The notes under the pieces were generated by a model. That model saw only the letters and a list, made by a program, of their open reading frames with translations. It was not told the origin of the DNA and made no database searches. Both the position numbers and the translations under genes were made by a program. Positions 2,607-14,329 of a DNA stretch of 64,000 nucleotides are shown piece by piece. Origin of the DNA: an uncultured Clostridia bacterium (GTDB lineage: Bacteria > Bacillota > Clostridia > Christensenellales > Borkfalkiaceae); NCBI GenBank assembly GCA_947631925.1, contig CANRNE010000004.1:1-64000 (forward strand), in the 5' to 3' direction. Position 1 is the first letter of the stretch; every line of letters starts with the position of its first letter.

Positions 2607-3057
2607 GAAACAGTTTTACTCTTACGTTCTTTGATTTTGCAAGGCGAACGGTGTAGGCGGTGCCGCCGTCCGATTTGGTGAGATAGGCATACAGCATGTC
2701 GCAGGCCTCCACCATCAGCCGGTTGCGCGCGATGAAACAGCCCGAAAAATAGTTGTGAAACAGTACCTTCTTTTCGTCGCACCACGGCAGCAGACGGTAG
2801 TACTCGTCCTTGTCCTCTTGGGGGAAGATTCTCTCCTGTCCCGCGAACGGAATATACGCCTTGATACGGACATGGTACCGCTGTTTGAGCTCTACGAGAC
2901 ATCCGAGCGACACCAAATCAAACCCGCGCGCCATGCCGCAGAGAAAGGTAGTATACCCCTCTTTGATGAGATCTTCGAGGTCGGCAAGCAGTGCGTCTCT
3001 ATCGAAATTTGCGGGAAGGTCGCGGTGTCCCGTCAGGGCGCAAACAAGTTCTTTCAT
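2584..3057 (-). CDS. SLOG-family (DUF1273/YpsA-like) protein with repeat-derived C-terminus
   Basis: This 157-residue protein belongs to the SLOG/DUF1273 group of Rossmann-like nucleotide-ligand-binding proteins. Supporting motifs are the N-terminal ALTGHRDLP, the FLCGMARGFDLVSL loop (GMARG is the typical small-molecule-binding turn), IPFAGQERI, and NRLMVEACDMLYAY near the end. The start codon overlaps the rsmG stop (ATGA), so translation is probably coupled to rsmG. The last residues (HFGEKLC) and the TAA stop are encoded by the hairpin of dispersed repeat R2, so the original C-terminus was replaced or extended by repeat insertion. The exact cellular role of this family is unsettled; relatives include DprA and lysine decarboxylase-like fold proteins. 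Confidence 0.8.
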   Translation of the reverse strand: MKELVCALTGHRDLPANFDRDALLADLEDLIKEGYTTFLCGMARGFDLVSLGCLVELKQRYHVRIKAYIPFAGQERIFPQEDKDEYYRLLPWCDEKKVLFHNYFSGCFIARNRLMVEACDMLYAYLTKSDGGTAYTVRLAKSKNVRVKLFHFGEKLC

Positions 3058-3743
3058 AGCGGATTTTTCCTCTCCATTCCCCTGCCGCGGGGATATTTTT
3101 CGGGCGTATTCGCGCCCTTTCTCACGACGACGAGCGTGCGGTGGCCGAACCCTTCGGGAAGGTCGTATTCCACCGTCTGCGTCCTCGTCCCGCCGAGCCG
3201 ACGGATGGCATTTTCCCCAACCTCGAGTTCGCTGTCCGCGCCCTTATAGGCGATAAACGTTCCCCCCTTCTTGACAAGGGGCATGCAGTACTCGGCGAGG
3301 GTGTCGAGACGGGCGACGGCGCGGGCGCAGGAGATGTCGTAGCATTCGCGGAAACGTCCCTGTGCGGCGTCCTCTGCGCGCATGCAGTACACCTCCGCGG
3401 GAAGTTCGAGCGTGCGGATGACCTCCTCCAAAAAGGCGCACTTCTTTGCCGTACTCTCAAAGAGGGCAAAGACGAGGTCGGGGCGGGCAATCATCAGAGG
3501 GATAGAGGGAAATCCCGCTCCCGAGCCGACTTCCGCCACGCGGCTCCCCGGAAGGAAGAGGTTCACGCCTGCGAGAGAGTCGAGAAAATGTTTGACGAAA
3601 ATCTCCTTTTCGTCCGAGATGGCGGTGAGGTTGAACTTCTCGTTGTTGATGCGGAGAAGGTCTTTGTAGGTCTCAAACAGTCCGCGGCGGGATTCATAGA
3701 GTTTTTCCAGCGTCTCAAAGGACGGCGATGCAAGAATTTTCAC
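3054..3743 (-). CDS. rsmG: 16S rRNA (guanine-527-N7)-methyltransferase
   Basis: RsmG (GidB) methylates N7 of G527 in 16S rRNA using S-adenosylmethionine. At 229 residues it matches the usual length. The SAM-binding motif AEVGSGAGFPSIPLMI is clear, preceded by the NLTAISDEKEIFVKHFLDSL segment and followed by SCARAVARLDTLAEY, both typical of the family. I place the start at GTG 3741-3743 (protein VKILASPSFETLEK), because the only good promoter has its TATAAT box 6 nt upstream of it. An in-frame ATG further upstream (3770) would overlap the promoter. The mRNA is therefore predicted to be leaderless. The SLOG-family gene downstream is translationally coupled. Genes for rsmG commonly sit near the replication origin. 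Confidence 0.92.
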   Translation of the reverse strand: MKILASPSFETLEKLYESRRGLFETYKDLLRINNEKFNLTAISDEKEIFVKHFLDSLAGVNLFLPGSRVAEVGSGAGFPSIPLMIARPDLVFALFESTAKKCAFLEEVIRTLELPAEVYCMRAEDAAQGRFRECYDISCARAVARLDTLAEYCMPLVKKGGTFIAYKGADSELEVGENAIRRLGGTRTQTVEYDLPEGFGHRTLVVVRKGANTPEKYPRGRGMERKNPL

Positions 3744-3749
3744 GCCTCT

Positions 3750-3779
3750 ATTATAGCACACTTTTTCCATTGTGCGCAA
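3750..3779 (-). promoter_or_regulatory. Promoter of rsmG, predicted leaderless start
   Basis: On the minus strand this reads TTGCGC, 18 bp, TATAAT, then exactly 6 nt (AGAGGC) before the GTG start codon. A normal transcription start 6-7 nt after the -10 box would fall at or next to the start codon, leaving no room for a Shine-Dalgarno sequence. Confidence 0.7.
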
Positions 3780-3802
3780 GTTTTTCCGAAAAGTTCCTAA
3801 AA

Positions 3803-3854
3803 TTTTCCACGCGCTGTGAAAAACGGGAAAGTTATCCTTCCACAGCGTGGAAAA
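3803..3854. repeat. Imperfect inverted repeat between rsmG and dnaN
   Basis: TTTTCCACGCGCTGTG pairs with CACAGCGTGGAAAA: 9 plus 5 base pairs with a 2-nt bulge and a ~22-nt loop. Both arms contain a TTTTCCACG DnaA-box-like core. It could be a DnaA-binding palindrome or a transcription-related hairpin. Confidence 0.6.
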
Positions 3855-4009
3855 AATTGTCGATAACTCCCGCTTTTCGGCGATGAAACTTGTCCCGCGG
3901 AAAATTCCCCGAGAAAGGGCTGTGGAATGTCCCCTTCTTTTCACACCTTGTCCACGGCCTTTCCACAACTTTTTTTCGCGCGCGATTTTTCAAAACAGGG
4001 GAAAAAGGC

Positions 4010-4038
4010 TTGAAATTTTCGTGTATTTCCTGTATAAT
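4010..4038 (+). promoter_or_regulatory. Promoter of dnaN
   Basis: TTGAAA, 17-bp spacer, TATAAT. A DnaA-box-like TTGTCCACA lies 29 bp downstream of the -10 box, so DnaA could repress or modulate this promoter. The leader is about 100 nt. Confidence 0.8.
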
Positions 4039-4142
4039 AGAGATATCTTTCGGACAAGCCGCGAGGTTGTCCACAAATCGACAGCCTTTATTATTACTAT
4101 TAAAATTCTTATTTGAAAAGAAATCATCATACGGAGGACACG

Positions 4143-5240
4143 ATGAAATTCGTAACTGACGGCCTCACCCTCTCGGAAGCGGTGAGCAAGGTATCCAAAG
4201 CGTGTGCAATTCGCACGACGGCGCCCATCATGGAGTGCATTCTTCTCTCCGCGTCCAAGGACGGGGTCTCCCTTCTTGCGACGGACGGGGAACTCTCCAT
4301 CCGCAAGACCATCAAAGCGGAAGTCCTCGAAGAGGGCGACATCTGCCTCCCCGGGAAGCTGTTTGCCGACTTCTCCTCCAAACTGCTCGGCGAGGAGATT
4401 TCCCTCTCGACGGGGGAGCGCGGCGTGGAGCTCAAATACCGCGACTCCGTCTCCTTCATGCAGGCGCTGCCCGCCGAGGAATTTCCCGCCATCAGCCTCG
4501 ACATCGGGGAAAATTCCTTTGTCATGAAGAAAAAGGACTTCAAGAAGATTGTCGCCGACACGGCGTTCTGCTGTGCGCAGGATGACAGCCGCCCCATTCT
4601 GAAGGGCTGCCTCATGGAGTTCCGCGACAAGCTCGAAGTGGTCGCCCTCGACGGCTACCGCCTCGCCCTTGCCTCGCAGGACATTCTCTCCAAGAGCGGC
4701 GAGGGAAGGATTATCTGTCCCGCCCGCACCCTCAATGAGATTGCGCGCATGCTCTCCGATGATGACAGCGAAGTCACTCTCTACACGCAGGGCGGTATGC
4801 TCCTCGTGGACAGCGAGAACATGACGGTCGTCTCCCGTCTCTATCTCGGGGACTTCATCAGAAAGGAGAACGTCATCCCCTCCCGCTTCACGACGACGGT
4901 CACCATCTCCCGTGCGGAGCTCTCCGCCAGTGCCGAGCGCGCCGCCATCCTGAACCGCGGCGACAAGAACAACCTCGTCACCTTCGAAATTACGGCGGAC
5001 GGGCTCAAAGTTTCCTCCGTCTCCGACTACGGCAACGTCTCCGAGGTGCTCCCCGCCAAAGTGGAGGGGCTGGACCTTACCATCTCGATGAACGCAAAAT
5101 TCCTGCTCGACGCCCTCCGCGCGCTCGAAGAGGACAACGCGGTCATCTCCTTCAACGGGCCCGTTTCCCCCTTTATTTTGCAGAATGAGGTGCAAAAAGA
5201 GGGCTTATATTTGATTTTGCCCGTGAGAAACATTGTATAA
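4143..5240 (+). CDS. dnaN: DNA polymerase III sliding clamp, beta subunit
   Basis: DnaN is the ring-shaped processivity clamp of the replicative polymerase. At 365 residues it has the normal length of three ~120-residue clamp domains. Recognisable stretches are LLATDGELSIRKTI, MQALPAEEFPAI, FCCAQDDSRPILKGCLME, VALDGYRLALASQ and the C-terminal GPVSPFILQ...YLILPVRNIV. The ATG at 4143 is chosen because it follows GGAGG at the right distance; an upstream in-frame ATG (4113) lacks a ribosome-binding site. The gene directly precedes rpmH, an unusual order because dnaA normally occupies this place in Firmicutes. Confidence 0.97.
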   Translation: MKFVTDGLTLSEAVSKVSKACAIRTTAPIMECILLSASKDGVSLLATDGELSIRKTIKAEVLEEGDICLPGKLFADFSSKLLGEEISLSTGERGVELKYRDSVSFMQALPAEEFPAISLDIGENSFVMKKKDFKKIVADTAFCCAQDDSRPILKGCLMEFRDKLEVVALDGYRLALASQDILSKSGEGRIICPARTLNEIARMLSDDDSEVTLYTQGGMLLVDSENMTVVSRLYLGDFIRKENVIPSRFTTTVTISRAELSASAERAAILNRGDKNNLVTFEITADGLKVSSVSDYGNVSEVLPAKVEGLDLTISMNAKFLLDALRALEEDNAVISFNGPVSPFILQNEVQKEGLYLILPVRNIV

Positions 5241-5322: not shown

Positions 5323-5457
5323 ATGAAGAGAACGTATCAACCCAAAAAGAGACAGAGAAGCAAGGTGCACGGCTTCCGCAAGAGAATGGCCACGACGGGC
5401 GGAAGAAAGGTCCTGAAGAGAAGAAGAAACAAGGGCAGAAAGCACCTCACCGCGTAA
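5323..5457 (+). CDS. rpmH: 50S ribosomal protein L34
   Basis: This 44-residue basic protein begins [18 protein letters not shown], continues [17 protein letters not shown] and ends GRKHLTA, a textbook L34. It is a component of the large ribosomal subunit that binds 23S rRNA. The ATG follows AAAGGAG. It is first in the conserved rpmH-rnpA-yidD-yidC-jag cluster found near bacterial origins, with rnpA starting 9 nt after its stop. Confidence 0.98.
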
Positions 5458-5466
5458 AGTCAACGT

Positions 5467-5799
5467 ATGGAGTATCTGCGGCTGAAAAAGGAAAAGAGCA
5501 TCTCGGCTACCCTCAAAAAGGGCAAACGTCTGCATGCAGAGACGCTGACGATGGTCTTTCTCCCCGCAGAGAGGACCTATCTCGCCGTATGCGTCGGAAA
5601 GAAGTACGGAAAAAGCGTACGGAGAAATCACATCAAACGCCTTCTTCGGGAGGCGTTTCGCGGCTATGCGCAAAAGATGTCGCCCTGCCGCGTCCTGCTC
5701 ATTCCGCACCTCGCCGAGAAGTACGACTATCATGCGTTTTCCCGCGATATCGGGAAGATGCTGAAAAAAGAGGGGCTTTTGCATGAGCAAACGTCGTAA
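5467..5799 (+). CDS. rnpA: Ribonuclease P protein component
   Basis: RnpA is the protein subunit that, with the catalytic RNA, removes 5' leaders from pre-tRNAs. At 110 residues it has the usual size. It shows the family's RNR signature SVRRNHIKRLLREAFR, preceded by VCVGKKYGKS. The central basic cleft residues that bind the leader and the catalytic RNA are therefore present. The 3' end overlaps yidD by 17 nt, which implies translational coupling. The catalytic RNA gene (rnpB) is not in this window. Confidence 0.96.
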   Translation: MEYLRLKKEKSISATLKKGKRLHAETLTMVFLPAERTYLAVCVGKKYGKSVRRNHIKRLLREAFRGYAQKMSPCRVLLIPHLAEKYDYHAFSRDIGKMLKKEGLLHEQTS

Positions 5800-6055
5800 C
5801 TTCCCCTCCGTCCTCTTTCGGCCCGTGAGAAGTCTGTGCATCCGCATGATTCTCTTCTACCAGCGGCGCCTGTCCCGTCACACCTGCCTGTATGTGCCGA
5901 CTTGCTCGGAATACACCAAGCGGAGTATCCACAACCTCGGCGCGATTGCGGGCATCTGTGTCGGATTTTGGCGAATCCTGCGCTGCAATCCCCTCTCCAA
6001 GGGCGGGCAAGACCCCGCACCCGAGCGGTTTTCCCGCCTCAAATGGGTAATTTAG
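5783..6055 (+). CDS. yidD: Membrane protein insertion efficiency factor YidD
   Basis: YidD is a small membrane-associated protein that aids YidC-dependent insertion. The 90-residue sequence has the family core FYQRRLSRHT, CLYVPTCSEYT, AIAGICVGFWRILRCNPLSKGG and a basic tail, with the conserved cysteines in both CxYxPTCS and RCNP motifs. It starts within the end of rnpA (17-nt overlap) and is followed 1 nt later by yidC. This matches its role as a partner in the insertion pathway. Confidence 0.95.
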   Translation: MSKRRNFPSVLFRPVRSLCIRMILFYQRRLSRHTCLYVPTCSEYTKRSIHNLGAIAGICVGFWRILRCNPLSKGGQDPAPERFSRLKWVI

Positions 6056-6056
6056 C

Positions 6057-7586
6057 ATGATAAATTTACTTGCAACCACCATCCAGACCATTCCCGATTT
6101 CAGCATGTCGCTGGACTTTCTCGGGAAATTTGCGCGTGCCATCATCGAGGGCGTGGGGAGTCTCGGCCTCGGGATTATCCTCTTTACGCTCGTCCTCAAG
6201 GCAATCACCCTGCCCTTTGACATCTACCAGCGCTACAAGACGAGAAAGCAGACCCTCATCATGAAGGCCATGAAGGATGACCTCGACAAACTGCAGAAGC
6301 AGTACGCCAACGACAAGACGACGTACAACATGAAGATGCAGGAGCTCTACAAGAAGAACGGTTACAGCGTCTTCGGCGCGTGCTTGCCCATGCTCATCTC
6401 CCTCGTCATCCTCATCGTCGCCTTCCAAGGGTTCAATTCCTATTCCCGCTATGCGACCGTCCATCTCTTCGTCAACATGAAGGAGGAGTACAACGCCGCC
6501 ATTCTCGAGCACGGTCCGGGAGGGGAAGACAACGTGGACTACCTTGTGGGAGATGGAGAAAACGACATCCCCCGCTCATCCATCACGGACGAAGAAACTG
6601 TTTATAAAGAGGAAAACGGCCTCAAATACACCATCGTCTATGAGGCGGTCAATACGCCCGTCTTCGACGAATCGGGGGTACCCATGTCCGAGGATGGGAA
6701 GTCAAAAACGCAGGAAGTCCTCACGCCCTACCTGCGCGTGGAGGCCTTGGAGACCGTCGAACACGACAACACCTTCCTCTACTATCAATACCGTCTTGCG
6801 AGCTACCGCCTCACCGAACAGAACGGGACGGTGACGAAGGAACTTCTTCCCGAGACGGAGGCGAAGCGCACCTACTACTTCGCAGAGGACGGGGAGGGTT
6901 TCCTCATCGATCGGTTCCTTGCAAAGGGCGCGGAAAATTCCGCGGAAAATTCCGCGGAAAAGAGCGCTTGGGACAAACTTTCCGCTGCGGAGACGGACAG
7001 CGGGAAGGAGCAGATACGGCTCGACTATCTCGTCGGCGTCGGCGCACAGCGCGCGGCGGATTGGTATCATACCAAGGGCAACAACGCGGGATTTCTCTGG
7101 ATTAAAAACGTGTGGTATTCCGACGCATCCTATCAACATCCCGTGCCCGCGGCCACCGTCTCTGCGGACCTCCCGCAGGAACTCTACGACGACCTCACGG
7201 CGGGGCTCGAAACGGAAAAGACGGCCGCAAACGGCTATTATATCCTCATTGTTCTCTCCATCGGCATGATGGCGCTGTCGCAGTTCATCTCGATGCGCAG
7301 CCAGAAGGAGAGCGCCCAGTATCAGACGGTGGACGGGCAGGGCGCCATGTCCCAGAAGGTCATGCTCGTCATGATGCCCCTGATTTTCGCCGTCTTTGCC
7401 TTCCTCTACAGCGCCGCATTCTCTATCTATATGGTCGTGAGTACGGTGATTTCCCTCCTCGTGACGGTATTTTGCAACCTCGCGCTCGGGCACATCTTCC
7501 GCAAGAAGGAAGAGGCGGAAATCAAGGCGCGCTACACGAGGGATGTCCCTTGGAAGAAGGGCGAAAACAAGAAAAAACGCAAATAA
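6057..7586 (+). CDS. yidC: Membrane protein insertase YidC with large extracytoplasmic insertion
   Basis: YidC/Oxa1 inserts and folds proteins in the cytoplasmic membrane. At 509 residues it is about twice a Gram-positive SpoIIIJ-type YidC. The five-helix core is visible: TM1 about 33-55 (GLGIILFTLVLKAITLPFD), a coiled cytoplasmic hairpin 60-105, TM2 105-127, TM3 about 393-414, TM4 435-452 and TM5 455-478, with a basic tail. About 200 extra residues (131-330) sit between TM2 and the conserved FLWIKNVWYSD segment, on the outer face. The groove arginine expected in TM1 is Lys48. There is no N-terminal lipobox. A short repeat (AENSAENSAEKSA) lies at 292-304. Confidence 0.94.
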   Translation: MINLLATTIQTIPDFSMSLDFLGKFARAIIEGVGSLGLGIILFTLVLKAITLPFDIYQRYKTRKQTLIMKAMKDDLDKLQKQYANDKTTYNMKMQELYKKNGYSVFGACLPMLISLVILIVAFQGFNSYSRYATVHLFVNMKEEYNAAILEHGPGGEDNVDYLVGDGENDIPRSSITDEETVYKEENGLKYTIVYEAVNTPVFDESGVPMSEDGKSKTQEVLTPYLRVEALETVEHDNTFLYYQYRLASYRLTEQNGTVTKELLPETEAKRTYYFAEDGEGFLIDRFLAKGAENSAENSAEKSAWDKLSAAETDSGKEQIRLDYLVGVGAQRAADWYHTKGNNAGFLWIKNVWYSDASYQHPVPAATVSADLPQELYDDLTAGLETEKTAANGYYILIVLSIGMMALSQFISMRSQKESAQYQTVDGQGAMSQKVMLVMMPLIFAVFAFLYSAAFSIYMVVSTVISLLVTVFCNLALGHIFRKKEEAEIKARYTRDVPWKKGENKKKRK

Positions 7587-7604
7587 CCTATTATAGGAGT
7601 TTTT

Positions 7605-8528
7605 ATGACATATCAAGGCAAAACGGTTGAAGAGGCGATTGCAATCGGGCTCGAAGAGCTGGGCATCGCCCGCGAGGACGCGGAGATTACCGTCCTCGAA
7701 CAGGGAAAGAAGAAGTTGTTCGGCTCCGTGCCCGCCAAGGTGGAGATTGTCCCCATCGTGCGGCTCACCGACGGCGAGCGCGCCGTCAAGTTCCTCGAAG
7801 GGCTCTTCCCTCTCCTCTGCTGCGAAGCAAATGCCGTGCTTGACAGCGAGGGCGAGAAAATCGTCATCCGCCTCGAGGGGGAAACCAAGAACCTCATCGG
7901 ACACCGCGGCGAAGTCATCGACGCCGTGCAGGTGCTCGCCGGTGCCGTCGCAAACACCGGGAGAACGGAGTACAAGCGGGTCGTCGTCGACTGCGGCAAT
8001 TACCGTGAGACGCGCGAGGAGACCTTGAAACGCGTCGCCAACAAGCTGGCCGCCAAGGCGGTGAGAACGGGCAAGCGCGTTCGTCTCGAGCCGATGAACC
8101 CCTACGAGCGCCGCATCATCCACTCCGCACTCGTGGACAACGAGGAAGTCACCACCCGCAGCGAAGGCAGGGAGCCCAACCGCTATGTGGTCATCACTCC
8201 CAAAAATCTTCGCCCCTTTGAAAAGCGGGACCGCGACGGGAAAAATTCCCGCGGGGACAGAAATCGCGGCGACAGAGACAGTCGCGACCCGAGAGGCCGC
8301 GGCCACGGCGACAGACCGTACAAAAAGCGCGAACTGCCCGCAGAGGGCACGCCCGAATCGAGCGGGACGAGCTTCTCCCGCGGCGGCACCCCGGGCTACA
8401 AAAAGGGCGGTTTCACGGGATTTTTCGGGACCTATCTCGGCAAAGAAGAGAGCGAAGACGTGACCCCCGTGACCGAAAACGAGGGCACCATGTCCGAGAC
8501 GGAGCCTTCGGAAACCCGCGACGAGTAA
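7605..8528 (+). CDS. jag: RNA-binding protein Jag/KhpB (SpoIIIJ-associated)
   Basis: Jag (KhpB/EloR) is a cytosolic RNA-binding regulator linked to cell elongation and division and encoded beside yidC. The 307 residues show a Jag_N domain (1-50, TVEEAIAIGLEELGI and GKKKLFGSVPAKVE), a KH domain (~75-150, NLIGHRGEVIDAVQVLAGA) and an R3H domain (~150-205, NPYERRIIHSALVD and RYVVITPK). The C-terminal ~100 residues are a charged Arg/Gly/Asp-rich tail (DRDSRDPRGRGHGDRP) that is unusual for the family and probably disordered. It starts 18 nt after yidC behind TAGGAG and ends at a strong terminator, closing the rpmH operon. Confidence 0.95.
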   Translation: MTYQGKTVEEAIAIGLEELGIAREDAEITVLEQGKKKLFGSVPAKVEIVPIVRLTDGERAVKFLEGLFPLLCCEANAVLDSEGEKIVIRLEGETKNLIGHRGEVIDAVQVLAGAVANTGRTEYKRVVVDCGNYRETREETLKRVANKLAAKAVRTGKRVRLEPMNPYERRIIHSALVDNEEVTTRSEGREPNRYVVITPKNLRPFEKRDRDGKNSRGDRNRGDRDSRDPRGRGHGDRPYKKRELPAEGTPESSGTSFSRGGTPGYKKGGFTGFFGTYLGKEESEDVTPVTENEGTMSETEPSETRDE

Positions 8529-10319: not shown

Positions 10320-10335
10320 AATTTCACGTGAAACA
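10320..10335. promoter_or_regulatory. parS-like centromere site 1
   Basis: The 16-mer AATTTCACGTGAAACA matches the Bacillus-type parS consensus TGTTTCACGTGAAACA at 14 of 16 positions with a perfect 12-bp palindromic core. ParA and ParB are encoded 2.3-3.1 kb downstream. Confidence 0.85.
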
Positions 10336-10361
10336 CTAAAAATTGCTGAAAAAATCGGGGA

Positions 10362-10377
10362 GGTTTCATGTGAAACA
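10362..10377. promoter_or_regulatory. parS-like centromere site 2
   Basis: GGTTTCATGTGAAACA matches the parS consensus at 14 of 16 positions, with one substitution in the centre. It lies 42 bp from site 1, about four helical turns, so both sites face the same side of the DNA. Confidence 0.82.
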
Positions 10378-12653: not shown

Positions 12654-13430
12654 ATGGGTAGGGTCATTTCGTTCTCCAACCAGAAGGGAGGCGTCGGGAA
12701 GACGACAACCTGCGTCAACATGGCGGCCTATCTTGCGACCGCGGGAAAGCGCGTCATGCTTGTCGACCTCGACCCGCAGGGCAACGCGACAACCGGCCTC
12801 GGGTTTGCAAAGGGCGGCTTGAAGAAGTCGGTCTACAACGTCATGATTGACGACGAAGACGTCAAGGACAATCTTCTTACGACCGTCATCGATAACCTCA
12901 CGGTGTTGCCGTCCAACATCGACCTTGCGGGCGCGGAGGTGGAGCTCGTCTACAAGAAGGGCCGCGAGAAGGTGCTGCGGGGCGCCTTGGAAAAAGTCAA
13001 AGGGCAGTACGATTTCATTCTCATCGACTGCCCGCCCTCGCTCGGCCTTCTCACCATCAACGCCCTTGCGGCGAGCGACAGCGTCATCATTCCCATCCAG
13101 AGCGAGTACTACGCGCTCGAGGGGCTCTCCCAGCTCATGAACACGATAGCTCTCGTCCGCCAACACCTCAACAAGAGCCTGAAGGTGGAGGGGGTCGTCA
13201 TCACGATGTACGACGGCAGGTCGCTCATTTCCCGCCAGATTGCCGCCGACATCAAGAAGTTTTTCAGCAAGAAGCTCTATGAAATCGTCATTCCGCGCAA
13301 CGTGCGTCTCTCCGAGGCGCCGAGCCACGGAAAACCCATTCTGCTGCATGACCCGAAGTGCATGGGCGCACGGGCATACAGCGCGCTCACGGAAGAATTT
13401 TTGAAAAAATCAGAGGGAAAAGGAGATTAA
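12654..13430 (+). CDS. parA: Chromosome-partitioning ATPase ParA (Soj)
   Basis: ParA/Soj is the DNA-binding Walker-type ATPase that works with ParB-parS in origin segregation and, in relatives, regulates initiation by DnaA. The 258 residues contain the deviant Walker A KGGVGKTT (11-18), the switch segment VDLDPQGNATTG (DLDPQG), FILIDCPPSLGLLTINAL and IPIQSEYYALEGLSQL, all typical for chromosomal ParA. The start follows AGGAGG. Stop and start of parA/parB are separated by 2 nt, so they form one operon, preceded closely (12 nt) by ftsH. Confidence 0.97.
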   Translation: MGRVISFSNQKGGVGKTTTCVNMAAYLATAGKRVMLVDLDPQGNATTGLGFAKGGLKKSVYNVMIDDEDVKDNLLTTVIDNLTVLPSNIDLAGAEVELVYKKGREKVLRGALEKVKGQYDFILIDCPPSLGLLTINALAASDSVIIPIQSEYYALEGLSQLMNTIALVRQHLNKSLKVEGVVITMYDGRSLISRQIAADIKKFFSKKLYEIVIPRNVRLSEAPSHGKPILLHDPKCMGARAYSALTEEFLKKSEGKGD

Positions 13431-13432
13431 CC

Positions 13433-14329
13433 ATGGCAAAAGGATTAGGACGCGGGCTTTCCGCCCTGTTCAGCGACACGGAGAGCGCCTACGAGAAGGC
13501 GCAGGGAGACATCAAAGAGACTTCGGAGGGGTCCACGGAGGTTCCTCTCTCCAAAGTCATTCCCAACCCCGACCAGCCGAGAAAGGCTTTCGACGAGAAT
13601 TCGCTCAACGACCTCGCCCGTTCCATCAAGGAGCACGGCGTCATCAGCCCCCTCGTCGTCAACCGCAAGGAGGACGGGACGTACATGATTATTGCCGGGG
13701 AGCGCAGATATCGCGCCGCCGTCAAAGCGGGCCTCGAGCACATTCCCGTCATCATCAAACAGTTGGACAAGCGCGAGATTCAGGAGATTTCCCTCATCGA
13801 AAACCTGCAGCGCGAGGACCTCAACCCCATCGAGGCCGCGTACGGCATGCGCCGCCTCATGGAGGAATTCAATCTTACGCAGGAGGTGCTCGCCGAGCGC
13901 CTCGGCAAATCCCGTCCCGCGATTGCGAACACGATGCGCCTTCTGACGCTCTCGGAGGAAGTCGTCGACCTCGTCCGCGAGGGGAAACTCTCCGCGGGGC
14001 ACGCGCGCACCCTCGTTCCCGTCGCCAAGGTCGCACAGGCACAGCTCGCCCGTGAATGCGTGAAGAACGGCTGGTCGGTGCGCGACATGGAGCGCGCGGT
14101 CAAGCAGTATCTCAACCCGCCCGAAGTCATCGCAAAGGAGCGCGAGAAGAAGAACGCCCTCGCCAACGTCGAGCTCAAACACTTCGTCGAGCGGCTGCGC
14201 TCCACCTTCAAGACCAAGGTCTCCCTCATCGGGACGGAGAAGAAGGGGAGAATCTACATCGACTACTACACCCGTGACGACCTCGACCGCATCTCCGAAC
14301 TGCTCGACATTCTCGACAACCTGCATTAA
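13433..14329 (+). CDS. parB: Chromosome-partitioning protein ParB (Spo0J)
   Basis: ParB binds parS sites and spreads on DNA as a CTP-dependent clamp. The 298-residue protein starts MAKGLGRGLSALF. It has the first conserved box (PNPDQPRKAFDENSL), the CTP-binding GERRYRA motif, the IQEISLIENLQREDLNPIEA stretch and a helix-turn-helix (LTQEVLAERLGKSRPAIANTMRLL). A C-terminal dimerisation domain ends in DRISELLDILDNL. The ATG at 13433 follows AAAGGAG. Upstream in-frame extension into parA is excluded because it lacks a ribosome-binding site. Two parS-like sites lie upstream of ftsH at about 10.3 kb. Confidence 0.97.
   Translation: MAKGLGRGLSALFSDTESAYEKAQGDIKETSEGSTEVPLSKVIPNPDQPRKAFDENSLNDLARSIKEHGVISPLVVNRKEDGTYMIIAGERRYRAAVKAGLEHIPVIIKQLDKREIQEISLIENLQREDLNPIEAAYGMRRLMEEFNLTQEVLAERLGKSRPAIANTMRLLTLSEEVVDLVREGKLSAGHARTLVPVAKVAQAQLARECVKNGWSVRDMERAVKQYLNPPEVIAKEREKKNALANVELKHFVERLRSTFKTKVSLIGTEKKGRIYIDYYTRDDLDRISELLDILDNLH

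Follow-up and report, generated by a model that had tools for sequence, protein, structure and literature searches.

A probable replication origin before dnaN and apart from dnaA in a genus of uncultured gut Clostridia

Our analysis of a 64,000-nucleotide stretch of an uncultured clostridial genome (the whole of it called the window here; C4:1-64000 of a draft genome, G000, of 1.92 Mb in 75 contigs) indicates, with high probability, a replication origin (oriC) in the gap before dnaN, where copying appears to start. It is highly likely that the gap between rsmG and dnaN is oriC throughout the genus, and that it derives from the oriC2 half (the dnaA-dnaN gap) of a normal bipartite Firmicutes origin, left with dnaN when dnaA separated. 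The named relatives recovered in a DnaN search, all of them uncultured gut Clostridia, include Candidatus Gallimonas merdigallinarum (73% DnaN identity); the NCBI taxonomy lists the genus Gallimonas under Clostridia incertae sedis, and we take the GTDB position to be Borkfalkiaceae within the Christensenellales. A published passage on such a placement deals with another genus, Coproplasma (PMC8035907).

A first-pass annotation had described dnaN as directly followed by rpmH, rnpA, yidD, yidC and jag, with rsmG divergent from it; in our calls of the dnaN block, which used NCBIfam models with their cut-offs, all of these genes score above the cut-offs where it had put them. Its parAB pair further on was also found, with parB above the cut-off of a ParB domain model and parA like the ParA-family models, yet below their cut-offs. 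The features of the region are as follows.

3054–3743, minus strand: rsmG, divergent from dnaN, with a predicted start codon (TIGR00138, 153.8 bits, cut-off 99.5)
3744–4142, no strand: putative oriC, the rsmG-dnaN gap, with a DnaA-box cluster, a promoter-like site and an unwinding motif (from box density, conservation, and the orientation and skew switch)
3803–3866, no strand: left DnaA-box group of five boxes, TTTTCCACG at 3803 (+), TTTTTCACA at 3815 (-), TTCCACA at 3838 (+), TTTTCCACG at 3846 (-) and TTATCGACA at 3858 (-)
3918–3968, no strand: middle DnaA-box group, TCCACA at 3921 (-), TTGTCCACG at 3948 (+) and TTTCCACA at 3960 (+)
4010–4038, plus strand: promoter-like site into dnaN, TTGAAA, 17-bp spacer, TATAAT (loose pattern)
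4067–4083, plus strand: tandem co-oriented DnaA boxes, TTGTCCACA at 4067–4075 and the degenerate AAATCGACA at 4075–4083
4088–4102, plus strand: five DnaA-trios, seen in the sequence as their complement, TTA-TTA-TTA-CTA-TTA
4143–5240, plus strand: dnaN, DNA polymerase III beta clamp (TIGR00663, 230.2 bits, cut-off 137.65)
5323–5457, plus strand: rpmH, in the same direction as dnaN (TIGR01030)
5467–8528, plus strand: rnpA, yidD, yidC and jag (all above NCBIfam cut-offs)
10320–10377, no strand: two parS-like sites, at 10320 and 10362 (42 bp apart), upstream of ftsH; no other site in this genome has as few as two mismatches
12654–14329, plus strand: parA and parB (profile models)

The rnpA-rpmH-dnaA-dnaN origin context has been described as conserved throughout the Firmicutes (PMC7561715), and the dnaA-dnaN place serves in computational origin prediction (PMC7198777). 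The dnaA, recF and gyrB genes, reported as missing from the 64 kb, are indeed on other contigs of this genome (dnaA and recF on C14, gyrB on C13). The proposal that dnaN takes the place of dnaA holds in so far as dnaA is gone; it fails as a simple swap, since the usual order has rpmH and dnaA divergent (L071; PMC7561715) and here the rpmH-jag block has also been turned to read with dnaN. Elsewhere in the window there are direct repeats at 841–923 and 1082–1164 (83 nt, 82%) and at 2377–2442 and 2553–2618 (66 nt, 85%), and within yidC (6920–6970) a TTCCGCGGAAAA-like unit is seen by eye to repeat directly over a short stretch; the vicinity of 1480–1640 in the dnaA locus (L012) looks similar by eye to the 83-nt pair, like an interspersed repeat. 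A second DnaN-like protein (118 bits, below the cut-off of 137.65) is encoded at a contig end (G000:C50, L178, 3–1061), and beside it is an ORF of 850 aa with DNA-methyltransferase-like sequence at its end; this is perhaps a mobile element with its own clamp.

From left to right the gap contains the left boxes with an inverted pair, the middle boxes, the promoter-like site, the tandem boxes, a short GC stretch and the trios (DnaA-trios as defined in PMC10721633 and PMC10316083), and then dnaN. The two DnaA-box-like motifs claimed earlier, TTGTCCACG at 3948 and TTGTCCACA at 4067, are both in place, and the box cluster that the first-pass annotation had proposed to test for is well above chance, with 7 TCCACR cores per 375 bp against 0.53 expected at the window's own rate; the gap is the densest 375-bp stretch for this core across the 104 kb examined. 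There are no copies of the exact canonical box TTATCCACA in the rsmG-dnaN gap, so canonical boxes were dropped as its marker, and the TCCACR-core cluster is the useful signal. Genome-wide, TTNTCCACR occurs at 216 sites (125 for the reversed control), and a looser box-trio pattern has two matches in the whole of this genome, one in the rsmG-dnaN gap and one on C26 (none in the reversed control). Loose box groups on C2, C5 and C10, taken from the matches listed (which reach into C10), fall within called ORFs, and none was taken for an origin.

These parts of the gap recur across the genus, for which we used a set of draft genomes (G000–G036). Matches were found for dnaN in 36 of these 37 genomes (in two pieces in G029) and for dnaA also in 36, and rpmH lies immediately 3' of dnaN in every one of the 36 with a dnaN match. 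Mapping of 15 reference genes gave the order rsmG< dnaN> rpmH> in 39 loci, the window being one of them, and removal of three exact duplicates left 36 distinct gap sequences, which are related and not independent. Together these hold 251 TCCACR cores in 13.5 kb (2 to 12 per gap), and the inverted pair TTCCACA/TGTGGAA at the place of the left group is well conserved among relatives. A strict pattern of tandem boxes, GC stretch and trios before dnaN, drawn up after the alignment had been seen, is present in 29 of the 36 distinct gaps including the window's and in none of 3600 same-strand shuffles; it misses the other seven. When 2.56 Mb of strand sequence (overlaps counted) was scanned with this pattern, 8 of 12 dnaN regions were matched, and every match was just before dnaN. 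The loose promoter pattern was found at varying positions in 33 of the 36 gaps, a count made without a shuffle control. In one genome (G007:C18, L141 and L142) parB<, parA< and ftsH< lie some 2.5 kb left of dnaN, and rsmG lies beyond jag at the right; parAB-ftsH and rsmG have thus swapped sides around the gap, with the box-trio motif still before dnaN.

In 12 genus genomes, gene orientation and GC skew were analyzed over up to 20 kb to either side of dnaN and of dnaA, oriented by the gene in question, with a gene caller trained on BLAST-anchored genes. To the left of dnaN 23 genes are forward and 133 reverse, and to its right 134 are forward and 25 reverse; an orientation switch at the dnaN gap beats no switch in all 12 genomes, and the best switch point is within 500 bp of dnaN in ten of them (1.4 and 4.7 kb off in the remaining two). 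Intergenic GC skew at dnaN turns from -0.048 on the left (negative in 12 of 12) to +0.035 on the right (positive in 10 of 12). On these flanks skew and gene orientation therefore both switch, as is generally expected of an origin, with the skew of the window's own genome being weak: right of dnaN it is +0.018 in the first 20 kb and close to zero over 84 kb. On the rsmG side of another genome (G025) the intergenic skew is positive going outward from dnaN in nine of nine 20-kb steps. The 84-kb and G025 values were obtained with an earlier gene caller that misassigned the strand of genes in several cases (seen in G028 and G015). The raw GC skew of the window was discarded as an origin signal, being swamped by C-rich four-fold sites, whose sense skew is mostly -0.2 to -0.4 (own genome and G025); at such sites a leading-strand effect fits left of dnaN and not right of it, where reverse genes are few.

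The parS-like pair lies about 6 kb downstream (ftsH itself is above its cut-off) and is present in all 20 loci of the named collection that reach ftsH; no such pair was seen in the dnaA-side stretches fetched. Sites with up to three mismatches are hardly more frequent than in the reversed control (8 versus 7 matches per strand), so it is the place and the conservation of the pair that speak for it. The earlier suggestion that the gap marks where replication starts is supported by the agreement of the orientation switch, the skew turn at dnaN, the unwinding motif and these sites.

The gap might instead be a DnaA-regulated promoter of dnaN, with oriC elsewhere. The promoter-like site does lie within the box cluster, and the DnaA of B. 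subtilis is described as doubling as a transcription factor (PMC4447404); on the other hand, such a promoter leaves aside the switch in orientation and skew at the gap, the unwinding motif with its trios, the parS-like pair nearby, and the similar motif that several relatives with the normal gene order have between dnaA and dnaN. We consider it improbable, and prefer an origin in the gap.

The dnaA gene, which the first-pass annotation had left to be located, is on another contig, in the order recF< dnaA> mnmG>; in the genome of the window a single ORF, of 444 aa, passes the DnaA cut-off (C14, 4663–5997; L012). The adjoining, divergent recF (TIGR00611, 348 bits, cut-off 172) and the downstream mnmG are both above their cut-offs, and the recF< dnaA> arrangement was found in ten genus loci including this one. 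Aligned with the trio-strand contacts of B. subtilis DnaA, the protein keeps Glu183, Asn187 and Lys222 and lacks Asn196, Glu223 and Glu228. Neither TCCACR nor TTNTNCACA occurs in the recF-dnaA gap of any of the ten loci, and the 300 bp upstream of dnaA contain no TCCACR in 11 of 12 genomes (one copy in G035). The gene counts around dnaA, forward/reverse, are 16/139 and 45/110 in the 12 genomes, so there is no orientation switch overall although recF and dnaA diverge there too. A skew minimum at a distant dnaA had been named as the finding that would speak against an origin at dnaN; on flanks of up to 20 kb the intergenic skew is negative on both sides of dnaA (-0.035 and -0.045). In the genus dnaA points against most of its neighbour genes and against the local skew, and for these reasons it appears to be on the lagging strand.

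These data bear on the idea that the origin is still at dnaA and that the dnaN block moved off. Its attraction is that recF and mnmG, the neighbours of dnaA here, lie near dnaA-dnaN in L071, and in 2 of the 12 genomes (G012, and G034 with 5.5 kb only on one side) gene orientation around dnaA is better described with a switch than without one; in the other ten a switch there fits no better, the skew shows no overall change, and the box-free recF-dnaA gaps are hard to reconcile with it. This idea is very improbable. That an assembly or binning error hides a dnaA truly just upstream of dnaN can be dismissed almost entirely: the genomes are drafts, and in G000 both genes are near contig ends (C4:4143, C14:4663), but the two are on separate contigs in all 35 genus genomes that have both, rsmG lies directly across the gap in the 39 mapped loci, and dnaA is at least about 434 kb from dnaN on the rsmG side (G025:C1, 448,645 bp; dnaA on C8) and at least 81 kb on the other side (G000:C4, 86,214 bp; dnaA on C14).

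For comparison with the genus, 24 further families of the order were each represented by one genome. The dnaA and dnaN genes are adjacent in 15 of them and apart in seven (f4, scored from 3.9 kb upstream of dnaN without dnaA, and f6, f7, f9, f13, f18 and f19), and two could not be scored, one gene not being found (f12, f14); counting the window's own family gives 8 of 23 scorable families with the two genes separated, at one genome each. The dnaA-dnaN gap was read by eye in 13 of the adjacent families (f3 and f24 left out), and boxes with trio-like runs after them are clear ahead of dnaN in eight (f2, f5, f8, f10, f11, f21, f22, f25), doubtful in three (f15, f17, f20) and absent in two (f16, and f23 with a gap of 44 bp). 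Since families with the usual order have a similar motif between dnaA and dnaN, the gap in the window looks like the oriC2 half. Five of the seven further split families also keep boxes plus trios before dnaN by eye (clear in f4, f6 and f9, weaker in f7 and f13), which with the window's family makes six of eight, two of them weak. In f9 the motif is nearly identical to that of the window, and there are four boxes within 500 bp at dnaA too. No DnaA boxes were found within 600 bp upstream of dnaN in f18 (G053; L172, L173), and no clear box cluster in f19; on its dnaN contig f18 has a 500-bp stretch with three boxes around the far recF end, its dnaA contig has four ahead of parB, and its genes diverge at recF/dnaN. 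On the short stretches available, gene orientation indicates the dnaN gap in f9 (0.86) and f18 (1.00, at recF/dnaN) and not in f6 (0.57), f7 (0.20), f13 (0.56) or f19 (0.55). Read in such single genomes, the motif would seem to travel with dnaN across families.

The simplest account for the genus has dnaA separating from an oriC2 half that remained with dnaN; dnaA would then have ended beside recF and mnmG. DnaA made from this distant gene would bind the box cluster of the gap, two DnaA molecules on the tandem boxes at 4067–4083 would load a filament of DnaA-ATP onto the trios at 4088–4102, and the strands would open toward dnaN before helicases are loaded. Transcription of dnaA presumably proceeds without DnaA-box feedback, and that of dnaN, starting inside oriC, could be under such feedback. 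One may go further and suppose that the heritable origin unit in the order is the unwinding motif plus dnaN, with dnaA a free gene that has departed repeatedly, and that in the genus dnaA sits without box feedback at a lagging-strand site and dnaN is a DnaA-controlled output. This is speculative and on balance unlikely, the more so because orientation in most other split families misses the dnaN gap; if true, the timing of initiation would no longer be based on an origin-linked, self-repressed dnaA. A search for the origin next to dnaA would probably go astray in this clostridial genus, and depth-based growth-rate estimates on such drafts would presumably need the correct origin. With related families that have and lack dnaA beside dnaN, the role of dnaA linkage and self-repression in the control of initiation becomes testable.

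Among the matches listed in our literature search, none reported a clostridial origin located apart from dnaA. The bipartite oriC described for Firmicutes such as B. subtilis and C. difficile (rpmH-oriC1-dnaA-oriC2-dnaN) likewise has boxes and trios directly before dnaN, and in C. difficile the DNA is reported to unwind in oriC2 (PMC7561715). The genus thus has the box cluster upstream of dnaN that is expected of oriC2, but its dnaA is not between two box clusters, the gap before dnaA is without boxes, and the rpmH block is turned and downstream of dnaN. Tandem boxes, GC stretch and trios before dnaN in the window resemble the unwinding system (BUS) described for B. subtilis (PMC10721633); a co-oriented box pair beside a trio run is found in 29 of the 36 gaps, the second box of the window being degenerate. 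In B. subtilis the dnaA promoter is described as carrying DnaA boxes in addition to those ahead of dnaN (PMC4447404), whereas the boxes of the genus were found only before dnaN. E. coli also has its oriC and initiator gene separated, and its BUS score is given as relatively weak; the genus differs in keeping the boxes-plus-trios motif, which stays with dnaN (PMC8287927). An origin by dnaN is not a layout new to bacteria, since the oriC of Synechococcus elongatus is reported to lie near dnaN at a GC-skew shift (PMC7198777), as in the genus; S. elongatus belongs to another phylum, and the likeness is one of layout, presumably of independent origin.
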